The translations under genes were made by a program, and so were the position numbers. A DNA stretch of 64,000 bases from Pseudomonas sp. B21-040 (GTDB lineage Bacteria > Pseudomonadota > Gammaproteobacteria > Pseudomonadales > Pseudomonadaceae): the NCBI RefSeq assembly GCF_024748695.1, contig NZ_CP087176.1, positions 4,085,501-4,149,500 on the forward strand, in the 5' to 3' direction. The notes under the pieces were generated by a model, which was not told the DNA's origin, ran no database searches, and saw only the letters and a program-made list of their open reading frames with translations. Below are positions 21,086-34,419 of this stretch, piece after piece. Positions within the stretch are counted from its first letter, which is position 1, and the number at the start of each line of letters is the position of its first letter.

Positions 21086-22102
21086 CTAGTCAGGGTCGAG
21101 CAACCCGCCGCTCCAGTTGCGCGAGACCCGGTTGCCGGTGAATTTCGCCACCACCATGCCCTGAGGCACCAGCCGATCCCGATAGCGGGTGACCATTCGC
21201 CCTGCTTGCTCGGCGTGCAGCACCACTTCGGAGGACGGATCCCCCGGCCGCCGTAGAATCCGCGCAAAGCGCTGCCCCTCCTCGACGAAATCACCGAGCT
21301 CTTTTTCGAAGATCAGCACCCCGGGCTGTGGCGCCAGAATGGTTTCCATGTGGCCCATTTCCATCGCCTCGACGGGCCAGTCAGCGGGTGTCAGCGCTTC
21401 GTCGATGACCCCGCAACCGCACAGCCACGCATACAACCCCTCGGCATCCTGTTTGGCAACCCGGTCACTGACATCGCCCTGCCCGCGCAGCTCCAGTGTC
21501 GCGGCCATGCGCTGGTCGGTGACGCCGTCACGCAGCCATGGCGCAATGATGGTTTCTTCGAAGGAGCCATCGCCGCCGTCATCCCAAATGATTGCCACGT
21601 CCATCTTCATCGCGGCGGCCAGTTCGCGGCCTCGTGGCCAGAAACGGCGGTGAACGTAGAGGTAGGGCAGCGCCTCGTCATCAGTGTGCAGATCGAGCAC
21701 CACGTGTGCCGGCGCCGCCAGTTGCACCAGTTTTTTTTGCCACGCTTGAACGTTGGTCGACGGTTGGGCCATGGCCGCCGATTGGTCGAACGAGCGGTTG
21801 AAGTTGTGCCCGGTGGCGTCATGAAAGCGACCGAGAAGCCGGCCTTGGCGAAACTGCCCGATGCCCAGCGGATTGGCTTGCGGCACTACCGTCACGCTGC
21901 CTTTGAGCCGACCGTGGGCATCGGCGACCTGAAGCTTTTGCATCAACAGATGCAGCACCAGCATCCCGGCAATTTCATCGGCGTGCACCCCGGCTTGCAG
22001 GTGCACGGTCGGTCCACTGCCATCGCCCTCGAAACGCCAGGCACCGACCTGCACCGCGTCGCCGTTATTGTTGCGAACACTGAACGAAACATCCTGCGCC
22101 AT
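21086..22102 (-). CDS. Zinc-dependent deacylase of the succinylglutamate desuccinylase/aspartoacylase family
   Basis: 338 residues from the ATG at 22102 with GGGAGG eight bases upstream. The Zn site of the family is visible: His and Glu in HLQAGVHADEIAGM and His in VVLDLHTDDE. A late MEMGHMETILAPQPGVLIFEKEL segment is the typical C-terminal beta domain. Relatives remove acetyl or succinyl groups from amino acids (AspA, AstE, DoeB of ectoine breakdown). The context of importer, aminotransferase and RidA suggests an N-acylated amino acid. A regulator operator lies in its promoter. Confidence 0.87.
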   Translation of the reverse strand: MAQDVSFSVRNNNGDAVQVGAWRFEGDGSGPTVHLQAGVHADEIAGMLVLHLLMQKLQVADAHGRLKGSVTVVPQANPLGIGQFRQGRLLGRFHDATGHNFNRSFDQSAAMAQPSTNVQAWQKKLVQLAAPAHVVLDLHTDDEALPYLYVHRRFWPRGRELAAAMKMDVAIIWDDGGDGSFEETIIAPWLRDGVTDQRMAATLELRGQGDVSDRVAKQDAEGLYAWLCGCGVIDEALTPADWPVEAMEMGHMETILAPQPGVLIFEKELGDFVEEGQRFARILRRPGDPSSEVVLHAEQAGRMVTRYRDRLVPQGMVVAKFTGNRVSRNWSGGLLDPD

Positions 22103-22165
22103 CGGTTTGTCCTCCCGCGTCACCCACGTTTAAAAAACCTGCATTGCCGGCGTCGAGACTGGTGA

Positions 22166-22221: not shown

Positions 22222-22857
22222 GTGACCACCCCCGCCCCGAAAAACCGTCGTGCCGAACCTGACGAACGCCGCGAAATGCTGGTTGCCGCGACCCTGCGTT
22301 GCCTGGTGCGCGATGGTCACGCCGGTATTTCCGTGCGTCGCATCGCCACCGAAGCCGGCGTGTCCGTAGGGTTGCTCAATCACCATTTCGGCAGCATCGA
22401 TGCGTTGATCGCCGACACCTACCAAAAGATCGCCAGCGAACTGACCACCGCCCTGCTCCAGGAAATCCAGCAGGCCGGCACCCCTGCCGAAAAGATGGAC
22501 GCCTTCCTCACCGGCTCCTTCTCGCCCCGGGTCATGGACCCGCAACTGCTCGGCGTCTGGGTGGTGTTCTGGAGCCTGATTCGTCACTCCGAACACGTCA
22601 GCCAGTCCCACGAAAAAAGCTATCGCGCCTACCTCGACCTGCTCCGCCAATTGCTCGATGACATGGCAACCAGCGAAGGGTTCGTGATCCACGACACGCG
22701 CCTGGCCGCCATCGGTTTATCGGCGATGCTCGACGGACTCTGGATCGAGTGGTGCCTGAACCCCGAAACCTTCAGCCCCGCCAACGGCCTCCATATCTGT
22801 CGTTGCTGGATAAAGGGGCTGCGTCACGGAGCATTCAGCACCGACGACGTCGTGTGA
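22222..22857 (+). CDS. TetR family regulator, BetI-like
   Basis: 211 residues, GTG start with AAGGAT upstream. The helix-turn-helix is at residues about 30-65 (GHAGISVRRIATEAGVSVGLLNHHFGSIDALIADTY). The BetI-like ligand domain includes LLGVWVVFWSLIRHSEHV and AMLDGLWIEWCL. It is divergent from the deacylase, with a palindrome between them, so autoregulation and control of the deacylase are expected. Its last 141 bases overlap the end of the EamA gene on the other strand. Confidence 0.92.
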   Translation: MTTPAPKNRRAEPDERREMLVAATLRCLVRDGHAGISVRRIATEAGVSVGLLNHHFGSIDALIADTYQKIASELTTALLQEIQQAGTPAEKMDAFLTGSFSPRVMDPQLLGVWVVFWSLIRHSEHVSQSHEKSYRAYLDLLRQLLDDMATSEGFVIHDTRLAAIGLSAMLDGLWIEWCLNPETFSPANGLHICRCWIKGLRHGAFSTDDVV

Positions 22858-23724
22858 GGGATGACGACCGAAGATCATCGCCAGGGTGCCACTGACCGCG
22901 ATCAGCCCGGCACCGATCATCAGCGACACATCCATCAGCGTGCCCCAGATCAGGCTCGACAGCAGGAACGCCCAGATCAGCCCGGTGTACTCGAACGGTG
23001 CCAGCAACGTCGCGGTGGCCCGCTGGAAACTGGCGAACAATAGAAACTGACCAATACCGCCGACCAGCCCGGCCCCGAGCATCCCCAGCCAGGCCGGGGT
23101 CGGCGCCGGGGTGTAGGTCCAGGGCAAGGCCACTGTCATGCAAATGACAAACACCACGTTGGTGATCAGCATCTGCTCCAGCACGGATGTCTGCTCATCC
23201 ACCTGGCGCAATTGAATGTAGGTGAACGCCCAGCACACCGCGGCCAACAGCGTCAGCGCCACCGGCAGCGGGTCGGTCATGTTGCCTGGGCGACAGGCAA
23301 TGAGCACACCGGCAAATCCAATGATCAGGCTGACCCACTGCCAAGCGCTGGCGCGTTCCTTGAGAATCACCGCCGCCAGCACCGTGACCATGATCGGTGC
23401 GGAGAAATACAGGGTGGTCATTTCCGCCAGGCTCAGGTCGCGGGCCGCCGTGTAATACAACACCCAAGCCACAATCGACAGCAGCCCGCGCACCACCAGC
23501 AAGCGTCGGCTCGGTGAGTGCCAGGCGCGCTGGACCAGGCGCAACCGCCCCGCCAGCAGACAGGCCAGCACCACCACGAACGCACGCCAGAACAGAATGC
23601 TGACCACCGAATAATCGGCGACCAGCCATTTGATGGCGGCGTCCTGCAACGCCAGAAACGTATATCCCAACGTGCACAGGCCGATGCCTTGCAACGACCG
23701 GTCGACGATCCGTGTCGTGCTCAT
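22717..23724 (-). CDS. EamA/DMT family transporter
   Basis: 335 residues from the ATG at 23724, which overlaps the stop of the upstream permease gene as TAATG. Ten membrane helices in two EamA repeats are visible (SILFWRAFVVVLACLLAG and the GLIWAFLLSSLIWG region). The natural end of the family lies near IFGRHPSHD; about 45 extra residues follow, encoded antisense to the TetR gene. DMT members often export amino acids, so this may be a relief valve for the locus. Last gene of the ABC operon. Confidence 0.88.
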   Translation of the reverse strand: MSTTRIVDRSLQGIGLCTLGYTFLALQDAAIKWLVADYSVVSILFWRAFVVVLACLLAGRLRLVQRAWHSPSRRLLVVRGLLSIVAWVLYYTAARDLSLAEMTTLYFSAPIMVTVLAAVILKERASAWQWVSLIIGFAGVLIACRPGNMTDPLPVALTLLAAVCWAFTYIQLRQVDEQTSVLEQMLITNVVFVICMTVALPWTYTPAPTPAWLGMLGAGLVGGIGQFLLFASFQRATATLLAPFEYTGLIWAFLLSSLIWGTLMDVSLMIGAGLIAVSGTLAMIFGRHPSHDVVGAECSVTQPLYPATTDMEAVGGAEGFGVQAPLDPESVEHRR

Positions 23725-24422
23725 TACGCCGACCTGCGCACGGGCGTCCCGCGCCGCTCGGCAAAGGCAAACAGCGCCTCGATCAGGAACGTCAGGCAAA
23801 CATACACGCCGGCCACCAGCAACAGCGGCTCATAGACTTGCAGCGTCTGCGCCCGCACCACGTTGGCGGCCCCCAACAGATCGATAATGGCAATGGTCGA
23901 GGCCAGCGCCGTCGACTTGAGGAGCATCACGGTCTCCCCGGCCAGCGTCGGCAACAGCAAGCGCAGGGCCCGAGGCAAGCGCACGCGAAGCAGGGACTGA
24001 CGCGCCGTCATGCCAAAGGCCGACGCCGCTTCCATCTCACCCTTGGGTACCGCCAATAGGCCACCGCGAATCACTTCGCCGACATAGGCCCCCACCGACA
24101 CCACCAGGGCAAACACGATGTACCAGTAACCGTCACGCAGGTACGGCCAGAGGAAGCTGCCGCGAATCAACGGAAACTGCGCAAACAGGCTGCCGAGGCC
24201 GTAGTAGAAAATGTAGATCTGGATCAGCAATGGCGTACCGCGCGTCACGCTGGTGTAGAACAGGCTGACCTTGGCAATCACCCGGTTCTTTGAAATCCGC
24301 GCCAGTGCCACCAACACCGCCAGTGCGTAGCCGAACACGCTGGAGATCAACAGGATGGTGATGGTCGTTTGCAGCCCTCGGCCCAACAGCGCCGCGTATT
24401 CAATTATCCACGCTGGAATCAT
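23724..24422 (-). CDS. Polar amino acid ABC transporter permease (HisM-like)
   Basis: 232 residues, about five membrane helices, with the ABC-contact EAA loop GEMEAASAFGMTARQSLLRVRLPRALRLLLP. It lies five bases after the other permease and overlaps the EamA start by one base. It forms the inner-membrane channel together with its neighbour and the fused ATPase. Confidence 0.92.
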   Translation of the reverse strand: MIPAWIIEYAALLGRGLQTTITILLISSVFGYALAVLVALARISKNRVIAKVSLFYTSVTRGTPLLIQIYIFYYGLGSLFAQFPLIRGSFLWPYLRDGYWYIVFALVVSVGAYVGEVIRGGLLAVPKGEMEAASAFGMTARQSLLRVRLPRALRLLLPTLAGETVMLLKSTALASTIAIIDLLGAANVVRAQTLQVYEPLLLVAGVYVCLTFLIEALFAFAERRGTPVRRSA

Positions 24423-24427
24423 TTCGT

Positions 24428-25141
24428 TTACTCAGCCAAAGGCATCCAGCGACGGATGCGTCGCTCAAGCCGTCCAGACAGGTAGTTGGACACCAGTGTC
24501 ACCGCGTAATACATCGCCGCGGCGGTGAGGTAGAACAACAAGTAATGCCGCGTCGAACCCGCGCCTTGCTTGGCGGTGTAGAGCAGTTCGTTAGTGCCGA
24601 CCACGCTGATCAATGCGCTGTCCTTGATCAGGTTGATCCACAAGTTGGCCATCCCGGCCATTGCGTAAGGCGCCATGATCGGCAGCGTGACTCGCCGGAA
24701 CAGGCCGAAGCCGTTCAAGCCAAACGCCTTGGCCGCCTCGATCTGGCCGAATGGAATGGCCTGGATCGCCGCGCGGAAAATCTCCGACGCGTAAGCCCCT
24801 TGCACCAGGCCCAGCACCACGATCGCCGCCAATGGGCCGCTGACATCCACGGTGCCGTAACCCATCTGCGTCATCAGCGAATTGAGGAGCATGGAGCCGA
24901 CGTAGTACAGCAAGAGAATCAGCAACAACTCCGGAACCGCGCGGAACAAGGTGGTGTAGCTGCGCATCAGTGCCGCGATGGGTTTGGGCGCACTCAGCTT
25001 CAGGCAGGCCACCACCAGCCCGATCAAAAGCCCGAGCACAAACGCCCCGGCCGAAATCTGCAGGGTCATCCAGAGCCCCTTCAGCAGCGCACCGCCCCAT
25101 CCTTGCTCGCTGAAGTTGATCAACTCGAACATTGCTGGCAT
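24428..25141 (-). CDS. Polar amino acid ABC transporter permease (HisQ-like)
   Basis: 237 residues; GGAG six bases before the ATG supports this start over an in-frame ATG nine bases later. The EAA loop GQIEAAKAFGLNGFGLFRRVTLP is conserved. Five or so membrane segments. It is separated from the binding-protein gene by a REPIN, which could dampen downstream expression in this operon. Confidence 0.92.
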   Translation of the reverse strand: MPAMFELINFSEQGWGGALLKGLWMTLQISAGAFVLGLLIGLVVACLKLSAPKPIAALMRSYTTLFRAVPELLLILLLYYVGSMLLNSLMTQMGYGTVDVSGPLAAIVVLGLVQGAYASEIFRAAIQAIPFGQIEAAKAFGLNGFGLFRRVTLPIMAPYAMAGMANLWINLIKDSALISVVGTNELLYTAKQGAGSTRHYLLFYLTAAAMYYAVTLVSNYLSGRLERRIRRWMPLAE

Positions 25142-25273: not shown

Positions 25274-26056
25274 TCAGAACGCAGGTTTTACGCTGGTACC
25301 GAAGTAGCTTTGGGAGAGGTCGTCATAGTCCTTGCTCGCCAACAGTTCCTGGATGGCCTTGTCGAGTTTGGCCTTGAGCTCGGTGTCATCCTTGCGCAGG
25401 CCGGCGCCCACACCTTTGCCGAAGATCGGGTCATAAGGCACTGCGCCGAGGTAGGCCAGGTTGCTGGCATCCGGCGTCTGTACGAACGCCGCCATGGCCG
25501 TGCCGTCCGCCATCATCAGGTCGATGCGACCGGCAATCAGGTCAGCGTTGGCCGAGTCCTGGGTGTCGTAATACTTAACGTCGGCGATTTTCTCGTAGTA
25601 GGTCTTCAGGAAACTGGCGCTGACCGTCGAGTTCTGTACGCCGATGGTCTTGCCCTTGAGGTCATCCGGGTACTTTTTAACGGAAGTGCCCTTCGGACCG
25701 ACAATCGCGATCACCGAGTCGTAGTAGGCCTTGCTGAAGGCGATCTGTTTTTCGCGTTCTTCGGTCACCGACATCGAGGAAAAAATCACGTCGATCTTCT
25801 TCGCCAGCAGCGACGGAATGATCCCGTCCCACGCCACTTCCTTGATCTCGCACTCGGCTTTCATTTCGCTGCACAGCTTGTGGATCAGGTCGACCTCAAA
25901 GCCTTTCCATTCACCGTTGGCCTGCTTTTCGGTGTACGGCGGATACGGTTCGGCTGCGACCGCGAACCTGATCGGCTGGGCTTGCGCCGCGCTCATGCCG
26001 GCCAGCAACAAGCAGGCCGCGCCTGTAAACCAGTTTGCCAAACGTCGATTTCCCAT
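25274..26056 (-). CDS. Periplasmic amino-acid-binding protein of the ABC importer
   Basis: 260 residues with a signal peptide (TGAACLLLAGMSAAQAQ). The mature part follows the HisJ/ArgT pattern: IRFAVAAEPYPPYT, GFEVDLIHKLC, EVAWDGIIPSLLAKKIDVIFSSMSVTEEREKQIAFSKAYY. The Asp in GRIDLMMADG and an Arg-lacking pocket region do not allow the ligand to be named. It lies 27 bases downstream of the aminotransferase-ATPase gene. Confidence 0.93.
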   Translation of the reverse strand: MGNRRLANWFTGAACLLLAGMSAAQAQPIRFAVAAEPYPPYTEKQANGEWKGFEVDLIHKLCSEMKAECEIKEVAWDGIIPSLLAKKIDVIFSSMSVTEEREKQIAFSKAYYDSVIAIVGPKGTSVKKYPDDLKGKTIGVQNSTVSASFLKTYYEKIADVKYYDTQDSANADLIAGRIDLMMADGTAMAAFVQTPDASNLAYLGAVPYDPIFGKGVGAGLRKDDTELKAKLDKAIQELLASKDYDDLSQSYFGTSVKPAF

Positions 26057-26083: not shown

Positions 26084-28087
26084 TTAGCGAGTCTGATGCG
26101 CGTTGACGAATTGTCGGCAACGTTCACTGCGTGGGTGTACGAACACTTCATCCGGCGAACCGGTTTCCTCGATCAGCCCTTGGTGCAAATAGGCAACTTT
26201 GGAAGAGACATCGCGGGCAAAAGCCATCTCATGGGTCACCAGGATCATGGTCCGGCCTTCTTCCGCGAGGGAGCGGATCACCCGCAGCACTTCGCCGACC
26301 AGTTCCGGGTCGAGTGCCGAGGTGGGTTCATCGAACAGCATGACCTTGGGCCGCATGGCCAGGGCCCGGGCGATGGCCACCCGTTGTTGCTGTCCCCCGG
26401 AGAGAAACGCCGGGTACTCGTTGCGCTTGGCCGCCAGCCCGACGCGTTCCAGCAACGCTTCGGCCCGTTCGGTGGCCTCGGCACGGCTTTCACGCAGGAC
26501 CTGGGTCGGCGCTTCGATGAGGTTTTCCAGCACCGTGCGATGGGGCCAGAGATTGAAATTCTGAAACACCATGCCCAGGCTCGAACGGATCCGCACCAAC
26601 TGTTTGGCGTCAGACACCAGCGGCGCGCCGGGACGGTCGTGGTTGAGCTTGATGCTTTCGCCGTCCACCAGAATCCGCCCCTGATCCGGCACTTCGAGCA
26701 TGTTGATGCAGCGCAGCAAGGTACTTTTGCCCGAGCCGCTGGCGCCGATCAGGGAGATCACATCGCCTTCGCGAGCCGTCAGGGATACGCCTTTGAGCAC
26801 TTCGATATTGCCGAAGCGTTTGTGCAGGCCATCGACTTCGATCATGGTCTTGGCCGCAACCGGTGCAACGGTTGCCTCACAAGTAACGCGGCTGATTACG
26901 GGCCGTGGAGCCTCACCTTTCAACACCAGGACGAAATCGCGAATACGCTGGCAAGCCTGGGCCAGTCGCTCTTCACCCAGGGTGAACGAGAGCCGTACAA
27001 AACCTTGCGCGGGTTCGCCAAACGCTGCCGCATCGAGGACCGACACGCGCGCCTCGCGCAGCAGGCGCCAGGCGAACTCAAGCGAGGCCAGCCCGGTGTC
27101 GCGCACGTCCACCAGCACGAACATGCCGGCATCGGGATTGAGCACTGAAATGCCCGGGCAATCCGCCAGGCTCGCGACCACCAGATCACGACGACGGCGA
27201 TAGATCTCGCGCATGCCGTGGGTCACGTCGTCGTGGGCCTGCACCGCTTTGAGCGCCGCCTCCATGACAAACCCCGGCAAGCCATACAGCATGCTCAGCA
27301 CCAGGGTTTCGGCATGTTCGATCAGGGCGGGGGCGGCGACGATCCAGCCGATGCGCCAACCGGTCATGGCATGAGACTTCGACAGACTGCCAATGACCAC
27401 GCAGCGTTCGGCCATGCCCGGCAACGCCGCGAGACTGAGGTGTTCGCGTTCGAACGCGAGGCTTTCGTAGACCTCATCGACCACGACCCACAGGTCATGC
27501 TCGATGGCGAGATCGGCGATGGCTTGCAGCTCTTCGCGATTGAGCACCACGCCGGTGGGGTTGTTCGGGTTGGAGAAGAAAATTGCCCGGGTGCGCGGGG
27601 TAATGGCCTTGGCCAACACAGCGGCATCGAGCCTGAAACCGGAATCCGCCGAGCACGGCACCCGCACCAGCGTCGCACCGGACGCCTTGAGTGTGGCCTC
27701 GTACGTCACGTACATCGGGTCCAGGGCAATCACTTCATCGCCGGTGTTGAGCAGGCACATCGACGTGATGAACAGCGCGTTCTGCGCCCCGGCCGCGACG
27801 ATTACGTTGGGCGCTGACACCTCACGGTCGAACAGTGGGCTGTAACGAGCGGCGATGGCTTCGCGCAAGGCCTGGCGCCCGGCGATTTCGGTGTAGTGAG
27901 TGTCGCCTTCGCGCAGCGCTTCGATGGCGGCATCGGTGATGAAATCGGGTGTGGGGAAATCCGGATCACCGACACTGAGAATGATCACATCCTCACCACG
28001 GCGCTGGGCTTCAAAGGCTGCATTGTGAATATCCCAGGCGGCGACACCGTCGCCTGAAATCCGCTCAACAAAGGGTGAAAACCGCAT
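26084..28087 (-). CDS. Fusion of PLP aminotransferase and amino acid ABC transporter ATPase
   Basis: 667 residues from the ATG at 28087, with GAGG seven bases upstream; the frame continues further but without support. Residues 1 to about 390 are a class I aminotransferase (VGDPDFPTPDFI, SNPNNPTGV, PLP Lys237 in GSLSKSHAMTGWRIGW, a late FVRLSF Arg). A linker of about 25 residues leads to a full ABC ATPase from about residue 415: LIGASGSGKST, FQNFNLWPH, LSGGQQQRVAIARAL, VMLFDEPTSALD and the switch HEMAF. There is no frameshift. An internal ATG at 26845 has no good ribosome-binding site. Both halves look active. The product should import an amino acid and could transaminate it at the transporter. 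First gene of the ABC-EamA operon, with a TGAAC-N4-GTTCA operator upstream. Confidence 0.92.
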   Translation of the reverse strand: MRFSPFVERISGDGVAAWDIHNAAFEAQRRGEDVIILSVGDPDFPTPDFITDAAIEALREGDTHYTEIAGRQALREAIAARYSPLFDREVSAPNVIVAAGAQNALFITSMCLLNTGDEVIALDPMYVTYEATLKASGATLVRVPCSADSGFRLDAAVLAKAITPRTRAIFFSNPNNPTGVVLNREELQAIADLAIEHDLWVVVDEVYESLAFEREHLSLAALPGMAERCVVIGSLSKSHAMTGWRIGWIVAAPALIEHAETLVLSMLYGLPGFVMEAALKAVQAHDDVTHGMREIYRRRRDLVVASLADCPGISVLNPDAGMFVLVDVRDTGLASLEFAWRLLREARVSVLDAAAFGEPAQGFVRLSFTLGEERLAQACQRIRDFVLVLKGEAPRPVISRVTCEATVAPVAAKTMIEVDGLHKRFGNIEVLKGVSLTAREGDVISLIGASGSGKSTLLRCINMLEVPDQGRILVDGESIKLNHDRPGAPLVSDAKQLVRIRSSLGMVFQNFNLWPHRTVLENLIEAPTQVLRESRAEATERAEALLERVGLAAKRNEYPAFLSGGQQQRVAIARALAMRPKVMLFDEPTSALDPELVGEVLRVIRSLAEEGRTMILVTHEMAFARDVSSKVAYLHQGLIEETGSPDEVFVHPRSERCRQFVNAHQTR

Positions 28088-28178: not shown

Positions 28179-28705
28179 ACAGAAAAGTCACGAGGCTTCG
28201 CGTTCGGCGCAAACAGGTCGTTTTTACGACAGTCGAGGCGTTTTTCAGCAAGGAAACACAAAAGGGTCGCGAGTAGAAACCCCGATGACTTTGCGGGTGT
28301 ATTACAACCGTTAATGTTTAAAAAAAACGCAAGCACCCCGTCGAAATTTCAATTAATACAACGGCCCTAAAACAAATAATCCTGCACTTGTAATGCAAGT
28401 AATACACCATAAAAAATTGATACTTGGCGCGCCAGCATGAATATCAAAAGCCCTACCCTACCGACCCCACAGGCAGCGAATAACGTGACCCGCATCCCCA
28501 TAGCAACTATCAAAATTAAAAACAAACCATTCATTCCGAATATTCATAAAAACTTCCGGACGAATTTTGTTTATCTAATATGCTCAACACCACATGCGAA
28601 CAAGTGATTAGTTATTAACGTGCACCACTCTTCCCTCGACCACGACTCCAAGTTCGCCTGCCTAAAAAACGCCAGCAAACTCAACATGACAACAAGGAAA
28701 TGGAA
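28179..28705. other. AT-rich divergent intergenic region
   Basis: No gene is supported here. From about 28300 the sequence is clearly AT-richer than its surroundings and lacks REP elements. It must hold the promoters for the leftward ABC operon and the rightward caspase gene; I cannot place them with certainty. Confidence 0.5.
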
Positions 28706-30460
28706 ATGAAGATTTTGTGCGTGCATGGCATCGGCCACGAGGAAGCGGACGAGACTTTTGAGCAATCCTGGAAGCGAGCCATTACCAACGCGGTACTGAG
28801 CGCGGCGCCGAACGCCGTCATCGAACTGGACTATTTCGAATATGACGCGCGTTTTGCAAACAGCGGCCTCGGCGCGCCGGAAATTGCCGAAGCGACGCTG
28901 CGACTCCTGACCAGTTCCGTGATCCACTCGGTTGGCGACGTGTTCCGGCGCGACCGCGGCATCGGGCAATTTCCCGATCGCCTGCGCTGGACGGCCGGCA
29001 TGGTGGCGCAGTGGACGGCGGACGAGGCGCTGCGGACCACATTGCGTAAAGACCTCGCCAACCGCGTTAACGATTTCCAGCCGGACATCGTCTGCGCCCA
29101 CAGCCTCGGTACGCTGGTCGCCTACGACACGTTCCGGCGAGATTCGTCACTGATGAGCAATCGTGTGTTGATCACCTTCGGCTCGCAGATTGCCAACCCC
29201 GCCGTGCGCGAAACGTTCGGCGGGCGCATTGAAGGCATCGAGACGGCGTACAAGTGGTATCACCTCTACAACGAACACGACCATGTGTTCACCGCACCGC
29301 TGTACTTGCGCGATGCAAACTTCACCCAGGTCATGACGCCGTTCGACAAGCCGGGCGACGCGCTCAATCACGATGCGACGTTCTATCTGGGCCACGTCGA
29401 AACCCGGTCCAATGTATGGGGGCCCCTGTTGCAGGCAGGCCTTGCCAGAGGATTCGACAAACGCCTGCTTGCTGTCGACAAGTCCCTGGGGCTTGCAGTG
29501 CCAAAGGCGCGCACCGCGCGTCGCTCGCGGGACAAGGCCCTGCTGATCGGGATCAACAACTACCCCAACCCTGCGGACCGGCTCGAAGGCTGCGTCAATG
29601 ACGTGTTTCTGATGAGTTCGCTGCTGCAAGAATCGAACTTCTCGCCGGATGACATCCGCGTGGTGCTCGATGACCGCGCCACCACGGCCGGCATTCGCGA
29701 TCGCCTGCACTGGCTGCTCGACGATGCTCAGGCGGGTGATCGCCGGGTGCTCTTCTACTCGGGGCACGGTGCGCAGATCCCCAATACCAATGCCGCAGGC
29801 GAAGCCGATCGCATCGACGAATGCCTGTGCCCATGGGATTTCGACTGGACACCGCAGCACGCCATCGTCGACAACGACTTTCGCGACCTATACATCCAGC
29901 TGCCATACGACACGCAGTTCATTACGATCTTCGATTGCTGCCATTCGGGCGGCATGACGCGCGAAGGCGCACGGCGTGCCCGCGGGTTGACACCGCCGGA
30001 TGACATCCGCCATCGCGCCCTGCGCTGGGAGGCCAAGTTGCAGATGTGGGTCGAGCGCGACTGGGTCAAACAGGCGCGCAAAAGTGCACAGCAGGCCGAA
30101 GCCGCCAATACCGTGAGCAATCGCAACGGCATTCGCCGAGTCGGACAAGCCATCGCGGAGCGTGGGTACGACGACAAGCTCTACAACAAACGTCGTGCTG
30201 TTTATAAGCACAACGGCCCGTTTCTGCCGATCCTGATGTACGCCTGTGGCGAATCCCAATTGTCGTATGAATACCGTCACGGCGTGATTTCGTACGGTGC
30301 ATTCACTTACGCACTCGCCCAAACGCTGCGCTCATCCAAACAACGGCCAACGTTCAATGCCCTGGTTCGTGCGACGGGCAAGCTCCTGGCCGAACTGGGT
30401 TATGACCAGAAACCGGCCATCGTCGGACCCAAGGATTTGCTCGGCAAAGTTGTTCCATAA
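28706..30460 (+). CDS. Alpha/beta-hydrolase fused to a caspase-like (C14) protease
   Basis: 584 residues from the ATG at 28706, with AAGGA seven bases upstream; an ATG six bases earlier is too close to that site. Residues 1 to about 245 look like a lipase-type hydrolase (CVHGIGHEE near the start, AHSLGTLVAYD with Ser133). From about residue 275 a caspase fold follows: ALLIGINNYPNPADRLEGCVND, catalytic His354 in FYSGHGAQ and catalytic Cys412 in FDCCHSGG. Both catalytic dyad residues are present. There is no signal peptide or membrane segment, so it is cytoplasmic. Bacterial caspases of this type are metacaspase-like and usually Arg/Lys-specific. Single gene with its own terminator; the role is unknown. 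Confidence 0.88.
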   Translation: MKILCVHGIGHEEADETFEQSWKRAITNAVLSAAPNAVIELDYFEYDARFANSGLGAPEIAEATLRLLTSSVIHSVGDVFRRDRGIGQFPDRLRWTAGMVAQWTADEALRTTLRKDLANRVNDFQPDIVCAHSLGTLVAYDTFRRDSSLMSNRVLITFGSQIANPAVRETFGGRIEGIETAYKWYHLYNEHDHVFTAPLYLRDANFTQVMTPFDKPGDALNHDATFYLGHVETRSNVWGPLLQAGLARGFDKRLLAVDKSLGLAVPKARTARRSRDKALLIGINNYPNPADRLEGCVNDVFLMSSLLQESNFSPDDIRVVLDDRATTAGIRDRLHWLLDDAQAGDRRVLFYSGHGAQIPNTNAAGEADRIDECLCPWDFDWTPQHAIVDNDFRDLYIQLPYDTQFITIFDCCHSGGMTREGARRARGLTPPDDIRHRALRWEAKLQMWVERDWVKQARKSAQQAEAANTVSNRNGIRRVGQAIAERGYDDKLYNKRRAVYKHNGPFLPILMYACGESQLSYEYRHGVISYGAFTYALAQTLRSSKQRPTFNALVRATGKLLAELGYDQKPAIVGPKDLLGKVVP

Positions 30461-30634: not shown

Positions 30635-32134
30635 ATGAACATTCTTTACGATGAACGCGTCGACGGCGCTTTGCCCGAAGTCGACAGAGCCGCCCTGCTC
30701 CAGGCGCTGCGAGCACGGTTGCCGGATCTGGAAATCCTACATCAGCAGGAGGAACTCAGACCGTACGAATGCGACGGGCTCTCCGCTTACCGCACCACGC
30801 CGCTGCTGGTGGTGCTGCCCCGCCACCTCGACGAAGTCCAGGGCATCCTTCGACTCTGCCATGAACGGCACGTCCCGGTGGTTGCCCGTGGCGCCGGTAC
30901 GGGGTTGTCCGGCGGTGCATTGCCGCTGGAAAAAGGCGTATTGCTGGTGATGGCGCGCTTCAACAACATCCTGCATATCGACGCCGCCGCCCGCACTGCG
31001 CGGGTTCAGCCGGGGGTGCGTAATCTGGCGATTTCCCAGGCGGCCGCGCCCTTCGGCCTGTACTACGCGCCGGACCCGTCCTCGCAGATCGCCTGTTCTA
31101 TCGGCGGTAATGTCGCCGAAAATGCCGGTGGCGTGCATTGTCTGAAGTACGGTCTGACCGTGCACAACGTGCTCAAGGTCGACATCCTGACCGTCGATGG
31201 CGAGCACCTGACGCTGGGCAGCGAAGCACTCGATTCACCGGGCTTCGACCTTCTGGCCCTGTTCACCGGCTCTGAAGGCATGCTCGGGGTGATTACCGAA
31301 ATCACCGTCAAACTGCTGCCCAAACCGCAAACGGCAAAGGTACTGCTGGCCGCGTTCGATTCCGTCGAAAAGGCCGGTCGCGCAGTGGGCGACATCATTG
31401 CGGCCGGGATCATCCCCGGTGGTTTGGAGATGATGGACAACCTGGCCATTCGCGCCGCCGAGGACTTTATCCACGCTGGTTATCCCGTCGACGCCGAAGC
31501 CATTTTGCTCTGCGAACTCGATGGCGTTGAGGCCGACGTTTTCGATGACTGCAACCGCGTGCGCCGGGTGCTGGAACAGGCCGGCGCCACCGAAGTCCGC
31601 CAGGCCCGTGACGAAGCGGAGCGCGTGCGCTTCTGGGCCGGGCGCAAGAATGCCTTTCCAGCGGTGGGACGCCTCTCACCCGATTATTACTGCATGGACG
31701 GGACGATCCCGCGCCGCGAACTGCCCGGCGTGTTGCAGGCGATTGCTGCGCTGTCGGTCGAATATGGCCTGCGGGTCGCCAATGTTTTCCACGCGGGCGA
31801 CGGCAACATGCATCCGCTGATTCTGTTCGATGCCAACCAGCCCGGCGAGCTGGATCGCGCCGAAGCCCTGGGCGGCAAAATCCTTGAGTTGTGTGTGAAG
31901 GTCGGCGGCAGCATTACCGGTGAACACGGTGTGGGCCGCGAGAAAATCAATCAGATGTGCGCGCAGTTCAACAGCGATGAGCTGACACTGTTCCATGCGG
32001 TCAAAGCCGCCTTCGATCCGGGCGGCCTGCTCAATCCCGGCAAGAACATCCCCACCCTGCACCGCTGCGCCGAGTTTGGCGCCATGCACGTGCATTCGGG
32101 TCAGATGCCCTTCCCTGATCTGGAGCGTTTCTGA
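30635..32134 (+). CDS. glcD: Glycolate oxidase FAD subunit GlcD
   Basis: 499 residues. The FAD-binding type 4 domain shows RGAGTGLSGGALP and the C-terminal domain shows VFHAGDGNMHPLILFD and TGEHGVGREK, the GlcD/D-lactate dehydrogenase signature. It oxidises glycolate to glyoxylate within the membrane-associated GlcDEF complex. The stop overlaps the glcE start by one base (TGATG). The usual divergent regulator gene glcC is not next to it here. Confidence 0.95.
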   Translation: MNILYDERVDGALPEVDRAALLQALRARLPDLEILHQQEELRPYECDGLSAYRTTPLLVVLPRHLDEVQGILRLCHERHVPVVARGAGTGLSGGALPLEKGVLLVMARFNNILHIDAAARTARVQPGVRNLAISQAAAPFGLYYAPDPSSQIACSIGGNVAENAGGVHCLKYGLTVHNVLKVDILTVDGEHLTLGSEALDSPGFDLLALFTGSEGMLGVITEITVKLLPKPQTAKVLLAAFDSVEKAGRAVGDIIAAGIIPGGLEMMDNLAIRAAEDFIHAGYPVDAEAILLCELDGVEADVFDDCNRVRRVLEQAGATEVRQARDEAERVRFWAGRKNAFPAVGRLSPDYYCMDGTIPRRELPGVLQAIAALSVEYGLRVANVFHAGDGNMHPLILFDANQPGELDRAEALGGKILELCVKVGGSITGEHGVGREKINQMCAQFNSDELTLFHAVKAAFDPGGLLNPGKNIPTLHRCAEFGAMHVHSGQMPFPDLERF

Positions 32135-33198
32135 TGCTTGAACCCTACGATATGGATGATAGCGATGCCCTGCTGGAGCAGGTCAATCAGGCGCTGCAAA
32201 ACGCCACGCCGTTGCGCATTCAGGGCTCCAACAGCAAGGCGTTTCTTGGGCGCATCGTCGCGGGCGAAGTCCTCGACACACGCACTCATCGAGGCATCGT
32301 CAGTTATGACCCGACCGAGCTGGTGATCACCGCCCGTTGCGGTACGCGGTTGTCAGAACTGGCCAACGTCCTGGACGACGCGCAGCAAATGCTGGCGTGC
32401 GAACCGCCCTCCTTCGGTGACGACGCCACCGTCGGCGGCATGATTGCCTGCGGATTGTCGGGGCCACGGCGCCCGTGGTCTGGATCGGTCAGGGATTTTG
32501 TCCTCGGTACGCGGGTGATCACCGGGCTAGGCAAGCATTTGCGCTTCGGTGGCGAAGTCATGAAGAACGTCGCAGGCTACGACCTCTCGCGCTTGATGGC
32601 TGGCAGTTTCGGGGCGCTGGGTGTGGTGACGGAGGTCTCGCTCAAGGTCCTGCCCAAACCACGTCAGTGCCTGAGCATCAGCCTGGAAATGGACAGTGAC
32701 CGTGCTTTGCTGCTTCTGGCGGAATGGGGCCAACAGCCGCTGCCGATCAGCGCGGCGAGCCACGACGGGCAACGCCTGCACCTGCGGCTGGAAGGCGGCG
32801 AAGGCTCGGTGGCGGCGGCCCATGACCGTTTGGGCGGCGAGTTGCTGGACGCGTCGTACTGGGAAGACCTCAATGAACATCGACTGAGTTTTTTCGATGA
32901 GGACCAACCCCTTTGGCGCTTGTCCCTGCCTCACAACACGCCTCGGCTTTCCCTGCCCGGTGTGCAACTGATCGATTGGGGCGGCGCCCAGCGCTGGCTC
33001 AAATCCGAGGCGCAGGCATCGTTCATTCGCAAGATCGTGAGCGAGGTCGGCGGGCATGTGACCTGTTACAGCCACGGCCTGATCGATAGCCCCTTCCAAC
33101 CGTTGCCGGCGGCGCTGATGCTGTACCACCGAAACCTCAAGCAGCAGCTCGATCCACGGGGCATCTTCAATCCCGGTCGCCTGTACGCGGAGTGTTGA
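32134..33198 (+). CDS. glcE: Glycolate oxidase FAD-binding subunit GlcE
   Basis: 354 residues with a single FAD-binding type 4 domain (SFGDDATVGGMIACGLSGPRRPW, FGGEVMKNVAGYDLSRLMAGS). The C-terminus ends in LDPRGIFNPGRLY, as in GlcE. Coupled to glcD by a one-base overlap and three bases before glcF. Second flavoprotein of the glycolate oxidase complex. Confidence 0.95.
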   Translation: MLEPYDMDDSDALLEQVNQALQNATPLRIQGSNSKAFLGRIVAGEVLDTRTHRGIVSYDPTELVITARCGTRLSELANVLDDAQQMLACEPPSFGDDATVGGMIACGLSGPRRPWSGSVRDFVLGTRVITGLGKHLRFGGEVMKNVAGYDLSRLMAGSFGALGVVTEVSLKVLPKPRQCLSISLEMDSDRALLLLAEWGQQPLPISAASHDGQRLHLRLEGGEGSVAAAHDRLGGELLDASYWEDLNEHRLSFFDEDQPLWRLSLPHNTPRLSLPGVQLIDWGGAQRWLKSEAQASFIRKIVSEVGGHVTCYSHGLIDSPFQPLPAALMLYHRNLKQQLDPRGIFNPGRLYAEC

Positions 33199-33201
33199 AC
33201 C

Positions 33202-34419
33202 ATGCAGACCACACTCAGCGAACACGCCCGCCAACTGCCCCGCGCCGAAGAAGCTGAAAGCATTCTGCGCACGTGCGTGCACTGCGGTTTTTGCAACGCC
33301 ACTTGCCCGACGTACCAGTTGCTGGGCGATGAACTGGATGGGCCGAGGGGGCGCATCTACCTGATCAAGCAGGTGCTGGAAGGCCACGAGGTCACCAGCA
33401 AAACCCAACAGCACCTGGACCGCTGCCTGTCGTGCCGCAACTGCGAAACCACCTGCCCCTCCGGCGTCGATTACCACAACTTGCTCGACATCGGTCGCGC
33501 GGTGGTGGATGCAGCCGTACCGCGTTCACTCGAGCAGCGCTTGTTGCGTGAAGGTTTGCGCAGCGTCGTGCCCAATCCCGGACTGTTCAAAGCGCTGGTC
33601 AATAGTGGGCAAGTGTTCCGTGCACTGCTGCCAAACACTTTGCAGGCCAAACTGCCGCGCCGTGTGTACCCGGCGAAACCACGACCGACGGTGCGCCACG
33701 CCAGGCAGGTATTGATCCTGGAAGGCTGCGTTCAGCCGGGTCTGTCACCCAACACCAATGCCGCCACCGCACGCGTGCTGGACCGGTTGGGCATCAGCGT
33801 CATACCGGCCCGCGAGGCCGGTTGCTGCGGCGCCGTCGACTATCACCTCGACGCCCAGGCGGCTGGACTGGACCGCGCCCGTCGCAACATTGATGCGTGG
33901 TGGCCGAGCATCGAGAGCGGTGCCGAAGCCATCGTGCAGACCGCCAGCGGTTGCGGTGCATTTATCAAGGACTACGGCCACTTGCTCCGCGCCGACCCGG
34001 CCTATGCCGACAAGGCGAAAAAGGTCAGCGCACTGGCCAAGGACCTGGTCGAAGTGCTGCGCGATGAACCGCTGGAAACACTCGGCATCCACAGCGATCA
34101 GCGCCTGGCGTTCCACTGCCCCTGCACCTTGCAGCACGCGCAAAAACTCGGTGGCGCGGTGGAGGCTCTGCTGACGAGCCTGGGGTTCAACCTCACGCCC
34201 GTGCCCGACAGCCACCTGTGCTGCGGCTCGGCGGGCACCTATTCGCTGACCCAACCCGAACTGTCCCGACAACTGCGCGATAACAAACTCAATGCGCTGG
34301 AAAGCGGGCACCCCGAAGTCATTGTTACCGCCAATATCGGTTGTCAGACCCATCTCGACGGTGCCGGTCGAACCCCCGTCCGGCACTGGATCGAACTGGT
34401 TGAAGCCGCTCTGCCCTGA
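33202..34419 (+). CDS. glcF: Glycolate oxidase iron-sulfur subunit GlcF
   Basis: 405 residues. Two 4Fe-4S sites are visible, CVHCGFCNATCP and CLSCRNCETTCP. Two cysteine-rich CCG domains follow (EAGCCGAVDYHLD; FHCPCTLQH with DSHLCCGSAGTYS). It passes electrons from the flavin subunits to the respiratory chain. Third gene of glcDEFG. Confidence 0.95.
   Translation: MQTTLSEHARQLPRAEEAESILRTCVHCGFCNATCPTYQLLGDELDGPRGRIYLIKQVLEGHEVTSKTQQHLDRCLSCRNCETTCPSGVDYHNLLDIGRAVVDAAVPRSLEQRLLREGLRSVVPNPGLFKALVNSGQVFRALLPNTLQAKLPRRVYPAKPRPTVRHARQVLILEGCVQPGLSPNTNAATARVLDRLGISVIPAREAGCCGAVDYHLDAQAAGLDRARRNIDAWWPSIESGAEAIVQTASGCGAFIKDYGHLLRADPAYADKAKKVSALAKDLVEVLRDEPLETLGIHSDQRLAFHCPCTLQHAQKLGGAVEALLTSLGFNLTPVPDSHLCCGSAGTYSLTQPELSRQLRDNKLNALESGHPEVIVTANIGCQTHLDGAGRTPVRHWIELVEAALP

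Follow-up and report, generated by a model that had tools for sequence, protein, structure and literature searches.

Gene and domain structure

We analysed a window of 64,000 nucleotides (the whole stretch of DNA presented here) from Pseudomonas sp. B21-040, contig NZ_CP087176.1, in which a single gene appears to join an aminotransferase (AT) to the ATPase of an ATP-binding cassette (ABC) importer for amino acids. Positions are those of the window. The original prediction had placed one 667-residue frame at 26084..28087, with a complete aminotransferase (Lys237), a complete ABC ATPase (Walker A, LSGGQ, Walker B, switch His) and following genes for a binding protein and permeases. Pfam matches, the motif census and the neighbouring genes bear this out, and the strand, which had not been stated, is minus. 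The proposed linker is also present, but its length is about 28 residues (387-414) instead of about 25.

26084..28087, minus strand: AT::ABC fusion gene, 667 aa (open reading frame, Pfam and homologue searches)
26930..28087, minus strand: AT part, residues 1-386 (Pfam, motif census)
27377-27379, minus strand: pyridoxal phosphate (PLP) lysine K237 of the AT part (motif census)
26846..26929, minus strand: linker, residues 387-414, rich in Ala, Pro and Val (alignment of relatives)
26087..26845, minus strand: importer ATPase part, residues 415-667, opening with an internal ATG (Pfam)

The frame runs on the minus strand from the ATG at 28087 to the stop at 26084-26086; a plus-strand frame across 26084-28087 is interrupted by 4 stops. 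Residues 33-382 match Aminotran_1_2 (Pfam PF00155, 234 bits), and residues 431-590 match ABC_tran (Pfam, 126 bits). Lys237 sits within an SLSK motif. The ATPase part contains Walker A (GASGSGKST), a Q-loop, LSGGQ, Walker B (VMLFDEP) and VTHE with the switch His. By its PF00155 match and the SLSK motif, present in 57/57 of the distinct fused proteins described below, the AT part is a class I aminotransferase. The ATPase part has all five motifs and linked genes for a binding protein and two permeases, and is of the HisP/ArtP (polar amino acid) type. The internal ATG at 26845 corresponds to codon 415 of the fusion. The host genome (6.75 Mb, one contig) has a single copy, which is 96% identical to its P. 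brassicacearum counterpart.

Three narrower names were considered and given up. The best aminotransferase-type match in NCBIfam is the GntC model (312 bits, cut-off 415), but GntC cyclodehydratase identity was rejected because the AruH-like gene beside AruI (see below) scores an equal 312 bits. Opine catabolism, prompted by an Agrobacterium rubi plasmid, was dropped as no opine gene is named among 27 annotated neighbours. A D-lysine pathway was dropped as the literature search yielded nothing bearing on it. For the ATPase part, the HisP equivalog model (NF007908) gave 351.7 bits and a cut-off of 466 applies.

Spread and conservation of the fused gene

In a search of the genus (199 genomes including that of the window, cut-off 1e-150), 43 genomes had a match: 36 at full length (1-667) in one frame with no stops, and 7 for the aminotransferase only. 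The family sample gave a full-length, one-frame fusion in 15/99 genomes, the window genome included. Among 369 genomes of the class (1e-170), the window genome was the sole match, and the four full-length matches among 398 genomes of the phylum were the window genome and three of the same family. Altogether, 62 fused loci in one frame were retrieved, which encode 57 distinct proteins. Their hosts are Pseudomonas, sister genera, Psychromonas and one Agrobacterium plasmid, and identity spans 59% to 97%. The Psychromonas sp. B3M02 fusion (L055, 59% identity) came from a scan of genome contigs (best 80 loci), and the Agrobacterium rubi pW2_73_1 fusion (L119:15001-17004, 66%) from a plasmid collection. 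The plasmid pW2_73_1 is typed as conjugative, and its fusion is accompanied by importer, EamA-type and TetR genes, which is a sign of transfer between classes. Its annotation of the fusion mentions an aminotransferase only.

The original prediction had named a stop or frameshift between the two parts as grounds against it; the 62 loci are all continuous in one frame. With 57 distinct one-frame proteins, a sequencing or annotation artefact is ruled out. Across the 174 loci compared, AT-then-ATPase pairs of the fusion family within 600 bp were in frame in 62/62 cases; in-frame continuity was the selection rule for fused loci, and, separately, no close out-of-frame pair occurred among the 174. 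In three further pairs at this distance (L047, L124, L121), the two genes are separate and belong to other families. On a Shinella plasmid (L121:7833-9732), the aminotransferase gene of another family stands directly before a separate importer ATPase gene and next to an ornithine cyclodeaminase-type gene, so that the neighbours are alike but unfused.

The two halves are conserved more strongly than the joint. Over 57 proteins, the mean share of the majority residue is 0.83 in the AT part, 0.46 in the linker (Ala 18%, Pro 13%) and 0.92 in the ATPase part. The stretch between the counterparts of residues 386 and 416 is 26 to 51 residues long and varies in whole codons throughout. Pooled dN/dS over 18 close relatives is 0.093 for AT, 0.32 for the linker and 0.058 for the ATPase; both halves are under purifying selection. 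LSGGQQQR, DEVY and SLSKSHAMT(G/S)WR are kept in 57/57 fused proteins, as is Walker A, in one of them with G replacing A. We conclude that this is a genuine and probably functional fusion of an aminotransferase with an importer ATPase.

Internal start at codon 415

Translation from the internal ATG could make the ATPase mostly a separate product, with the long chain as a minor one, and the original prediction would have been abandoned if the ATPase came solely from 26845. A start codon at this place is indeed common, as codon 415 is ATG in 46/57 proteins and GTG in 5/57. However, it is a non-start codon in 6/57, and where it is a start codon its median Shine-Dalgarno (SD) energy (-2.2 kcal/mol) is like the background inside the AT part (-2.0 kcal/mol) and far from that of the true start (-5.8 kcal/mol). 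An ATPase from an internal start as a general rule was rejected for these two reasons, and a separate ATPase as the main product is highly improbable in the window as well. In-frame GTG and TTG codons occur elsewhere in many linkers, a few of them with a strong SD, and leave room for a minor product. Since codon 415 is no start codon in some relatives and its SD energy stays at background, we infer that the single fused protein is the main product to be expected.

Linkage of the AT part to AruI

The AruH/AruI arginine transaminase pathway is said to have been described in Pseudomonas by Yang and Lu in 2007. In the window genome, the closest stand-alone paralogue of the AT part (56% identity) adjoins a thiamine pyrophosphate (TPP) enzyme (L116). 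With 780.7 bits against a cut-off of 500, that enzyme passes the NCBI model for 5-guanidino-2-oxopentanoate decarboxylase, and we read the L116 pair as AruI-AruH. The further gene order around L116 presumably resembles the aru region of P. aeruginosa. A branch with 100/100 support separates the L116 AruH from the AT part, which is a paralogue and not an ortholog.

Homologues of AruI accompany the fusion and its relatives. Those of L053, L057 and L116 score 742-781 bits against the cut-off of 500 in the same model, and AruI homologues occur in 11/12 loci in which AT and ATPase genes are unfused (see the section on origin); L141, which ends at a contig end, shows none. In 9 fused loci (9 of the 32 tested genomes) AruI, 77-85% identical to that of the window genome, lies just upstream of the fusion, with an aldehyde dehydrogenase gene in between in 4 of these 9; an upstream flank of at least 2.5 kb was present in 38/57 fused loci. 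In the window genome AruI is located away from the fusion, beside AruH.

For a wider comparison, we used 32/36 fused and 4/7 AT-only genomes of the genus search, with 50 of the 156 genus genomes having no match to the fusion as control. AruI is present in 32/32 fused genomes and in 0/4 AT-only genomes. At an AruH-family cut-off of 1e-100, the fusion is the only AruH-family match in 11/32 fused genomes, while the sole separate paralogue is 72-74% identical in 4 and 49-50% in 2. In the control, AruI of at least 81% identity was found in 8/50 genomes, and 8/8 of these have AruH, adjoining AruI in 7 and at 1.3 kb in G057. For close AruI, Fisher tests returned 1.3e-15 (its association with the fusion) and 0.013 (its occurrence in the absence of AruH); since the genomes are related, neither value should be taken as a real probability.

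The most straightforward interpretation is that the fused AT can take the place of AruH and would supply 2-ketoarginine; in the window genome, the fusion adds to an existing AruH. The linkage with AruI makes arginine the likely substrate, and an arginine transaminase is the most likely identity of the enzyme half.

The AT part might instead serve mainly as a sensor, i.e., as a regulatory domain that binds substrate or PLP and tunes the ATPase. Regulatory domains are present on the importer ATPases MetN and MalK, and a dimeric AT could gate a dimeric ATPase. This is quite improbable, as the catalytic motifs of the AT part are kept, and catalysis is called for where the fusion is the sole AruH-family enzyme found beside a kept AruI (11/32 genomes).

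Operon neighbours and importer cargo

The genes that follow the fusion are listed below.

25274..26056, minus strand: periplasmic binding protein of the lysine/arginine/ornithine (LAO) type (Pfam SBP_bac_3)
24428..25141, minus strand: permease 1, HisQ/ArtQ-like (Pfam, NCBIfam)
23724..24422, minus strand: permease 2, HisM/ArtM-like (Pfam, NCBIfam)
22717..23724, minus strand: EamA-family transporter (Pfam; the start is an ATG inside the listed open reading frame)
22222..22857, plus strand: TetR/BetI-like regulator (Pfam; convergent with EamA, overlapping the EamA 3' end)
21086..22123, minus strand: AstE/AspA-family hydrolase, CphZ-like (Pfam AstE_AspA_cat)

The binding-protein gene follows the fusion in 57/57 loci, and the permease genes in 39/39 and 33/33 loci with sufficient flank. 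Counted in the same way, the EamA gene is present in 11/18 loci (with a remnant in L038), the TetR gene in 15/16 (with a 54-residue remnant in L050) and the AstE-like hydrolase in 11/13 (absent from L055 and L119); L159, outside the 16-locus count, is without the TetR gene. A second ATPase gene was not found downstream of the fusion, where 18/57 loci had a flank of 4.6 kb and 13 one of 7 kb, and none other was found in the window from 21 to 28 kb.

Binding protein: It scores 231.8 bits in TIGR01096 (LAO subfamily), below the cut-off of 256.35. Its closest solved relative is the LAO protein 5owf.

Hydrolase: The protein belongs to the AstE/AspA catalytic family (PF24827, 80.1 bits, cut-off 25). 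Its closest solved relative is 8ein, which we take to be a CphZ structure. An AstE-like gene also lies just upstream of an importer ATPase gene at three other places in the window genome. This is consistent with the placement of AotO, such an AstE-like enzyme, which reportedly belongs to the aot operon of P. aeruginosa. In passages of PMC10206079, CphZ is a cyanophycin dipeptide hydrolase.

Cargo: According to passages of PMC6829864, AotJ binds L-arginine. From this, the LAO-type binding protein, the AstE-like hydrolase and the aot parallels, our best guess for the cargo is arginine or beta-Asp-Arg from cyanophycin.

The AT part might instead have ornithine, lysine or a derivative, likewise a basic amino acid taken up by the importer, and not arginine as its chief substrate. 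The LAO-type binding protein would suit this, 15/32 fused genomes keep AruH too, and the Sinorhizobium meliloti enzymes point the same way: according to PMC7268258, AspC uses ornithine, agmatine and putrescine as well, and the decarboxylase IlvB1 prefers a 5-amino compound. The co-occurrence with AruI and its position just upstream of the fusion in 9 loci argue for arginine, however, and another chief substrate is unlikely.

Three observations were made around the operon. The convergent EamA and TetR genes share ~141 bases at their 3' ends (22717-22857), and a similar overlap occurs in L036, L037 and L051. A large open reading frame at 28700-30460 adjoins the operon and has an odd combination of caspase-like and lipase-like features; a stretch with YSGHGAQ ... 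DCCHSGG looks caspase-like and lies behind an N-terminal stretch with a lipase-like AHSLGT motif. Three consecutive open reading frames at 30635-34419 presumably resemble glycolate oxidase glcDEF.

Origin of the fusion

The 12 unfused loci come from Burkholderia, Chromobacterium, Craterilacuibacter, several Pseudomonas and other relatives. In 11/12 the genes share one strand in the order ATPase, binding protein, permease, permease, AT; the exception is L058 (Limnohabitans), where the AT gene faces the others. Given this order, the two halves of the fusion probably opened and closed a single operon before they were joined.

ATPase tree: A tree was made with a quick method, from which most near-copies of fused rows were omitted. 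All of the 15 fused rows chosen fall into a single clade (99), nested in a branch (98) that also holds the ATPases of 11 unfused loci. The ATPase of L058, on a long branch, falls elsewhere. The sequences indicate that the fused ATPase halves descend from those of an older operon which already held both genes.

AT trees: In a tree of 96 rows (quick method), the fused rows group with nine ATPase-less Pseudomonas rows, with a support of 92 that includes two unresolved long rows. The same grouping, Psychromonas excluded, has 86/88 in a 53-row tree (careful method; 22 fused rows chosen, 8 long or distant unfused rows omitted). The Psychromonas (L055) and Agrobacterium rows are long branches. In the 53-row tree, the ATPase-less pairs L047/L124 (99/98) and L048/L125 (96/98) are nested deep among fused rows, which reads as a later loss of the ATPase, with AT kept, at least twice. 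Loss of the ATPase is likely in the other five ATPase-less rows, too.

The ATPase-less AT genes (L046-L049, L124-L128) end within or near the old linker, keep SLSK in 9/9 and are under purifying selection (dN/dS 0.06-0.12 in four pairs). As AT genes survive without the ATPase in other Pseudomonas, the coupling of AT and ATPase is not obligatory. At L047:9439-13932, the operon downstream of the ATPase-less relative is that of a sugar-type importer and has a LacI-type regulator.

A second domain fused to the same ATPase family

A domain unrelated to the AT, DUF2817, forms the N-terminal part of fused importer ATPases of this family in Ensifer, Mesorhizobium, Rhizobium, an uncultured Agrobacterium and Paracoccus. 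Genes for a binding protein and permeases follow.

DUF2817::ABC loci: L087:8863-10971; L074, L076, L080, L081, L088, L111, L163-L166

Seven of these loci came from the contig scan and four from phylum-survey genomes; L080 and L166, whose contigs are equally long, are probably one record. The DUF2817 match of L087 has 324.6 bits in Pfam, and the other loci are 63-77% identical to its DUF2817 part. Their ATPases (ten distinct rows) form a clade of their own (99), and DUF2817::ABC is evidently an independent fusion. In the family with the DUF2817 fusions, a search of 199 genomes found no full-length AT fusion. Near 9/11 of the DUF2817 fusions there is a separate aminotransferase gene that is related to the one next to the Ensifer fusion (itself counted), with one cut by the end. 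For a kinship of DUF2817 with AstE, hhalign gave only a 15-column motif at 5% probability.

Among the matches listed in the phylum survey, 13 ATPase rows had a frame of more than 450 aa: 4 AT fusions, 4 DUF2817 fusions and 5 read-through frames. The long ATPase frames of G585, G454, G608, G450 and the second copy in G221 were rejected as chance read-through by codon-position GC.

Proposed function

An importer of the polar amino acid kind contains a pair of ATPase subunits, and aminotransferases of class I work as dimers; hence, two AT chains would be expected per importer at its cytoplasmic face. We think it probable that the protein has two functions and is an AruH-type arginine (2-oxo acid) transaminase that carries, at its C-terminus, the ATPase of the adjoining basic-amino-acid importer. 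The importer would bring in arginine or the arginine dipeptide beta-Asp-Arg, the latter as a substrate for the CphZ-like hydrolase. With its two ATPase parts, each importer would place two transaminase parts at the cytoplasmic side, where arginine would be converted to 2-ketoarginine and then decarboxylated by AruI. Tethering would fix the ratio of importer to enzyme, and it may commit imported arginine to the transaminase pathway ahead of competing routes. More tentatively, we propose that uptake is coupled to catabolism, with the motor being the first catabolic enzyme and an AT dimer at the exit handing arginine on, and that such an arrangement evolved twice (AT, DUF2817); this is possible, though we would not call it the likelier outcome.

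An alternative account falls just short of being likely. It assumes that both halves work and that the joint merely equalises amounts and ensures co-regulation, with no benefit from tethering or channelling. The linker shows little conservation and a flexible composition, the parent genes were in one operon beforehand, and the ATPase was lost later with AT kept, at least 2 times, all of which suits a fusion of convenience. On the other hand, the fused state has been kept from 59% to 97% identity and in frame in 62/62 close pairs, and a second kind of domain (DUF2817) was fused at the same position in another lineage.

Several findings weigh against our reading of the protein as an arginine transaminase on an importer ATPase with a single history. 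The fusion scores below the cut-off of every NCBIfam model among the best 25 of 281 matches, and its AT part is only 56% identical to AruH. A close AruH (at least 89%) is present in 15 of the 32 fused genomes, the window genome among them. In four of the 50 unfused control genomes (G001, G018, G041, G063), AruI is represented by a distant homologue (46-49%) and the AruH family has no match at 1e-100, so that a decarboxylase of the AruI kind does not always imply an AruH-family transaminase; homologues this distant may be different enzymes or have a different transaminase as partner. Since the ATPase-less ATs are under purifying selection and AruI is absent from 4/4 of their genomes, AT may have another substrate in some hosts. 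Finally, L055 stands in an unresolved fork of the 53-row AT tree, and a single origin of the fused genes therefore rests on the ATPase tree.

Comparison with known systems

The original prediction knew of no described system of this kind, and our search agrees: no description of an aminotransferase fused to an importer ATPase was found in the open-licence full-text literature, a scope outside which most subscription papers fall. Passages of PMC4921024 and PMC6222131 contain no such fusion, the fusion tables of PMC4921024 being outside this scope. To our knowledge, the handover of cargo from transporter to enzyme has mostly been argued from loose associations. Here, a covalent link occurs in cultured pseudomonads, and the unfused and ATPase-less relatives are ready-made controls, so that the effect of enzyme tethering on the fate of importer cargo becomes directly testable. 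An operon for which we found no study would now be tied to the use of arginine and perhaps of the cyanophycin dipeptide.

AruH/AruI: The AT part is of the same family (56% identity to the AruH-like gene of the window genome), and AruI is kept in the 32 fused genomes tested. However, the known AruH is a stand-alone enzyme, whereas the fused AT is a paralogue joined to an importer ATPase. For S. meliloti, passages of PMC7268258 describe AspC as an arginine transaminase and IlvB1 as its decarboxylase.

aot, LAO and His importers: The binding-protein, permease and ATPase families are alike. In these importers, the ATPases have ~250-280 aa and no enzyme part.

CphZ: The hydrolase of the window is of the same AstE/AspA family, and cutting of beta-Asp-Arg is putative.

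DUF2817::ABC: An enzyme-like domain is likewise N-terminal to the same ATPase family, and binding-protein and permease genes follow. The N-terminal family is different, and the ATPases are in a separate clade.

Mycoplasma penetrans MetRS: Closest in kind, according to PMC7694997, is this methionyl-tRNA synthetase, which has an N-terminal aminotransferase and in which both domains are active. Here, too, the aminotransferase is N-terminal on a protein that uses the same amino acid, but the partner is a tRNA synthetase and not a transporter ATPase, and the reaction runs toward the amino acid. The fusion in the window is composed of known families in a new covalent arrangement.

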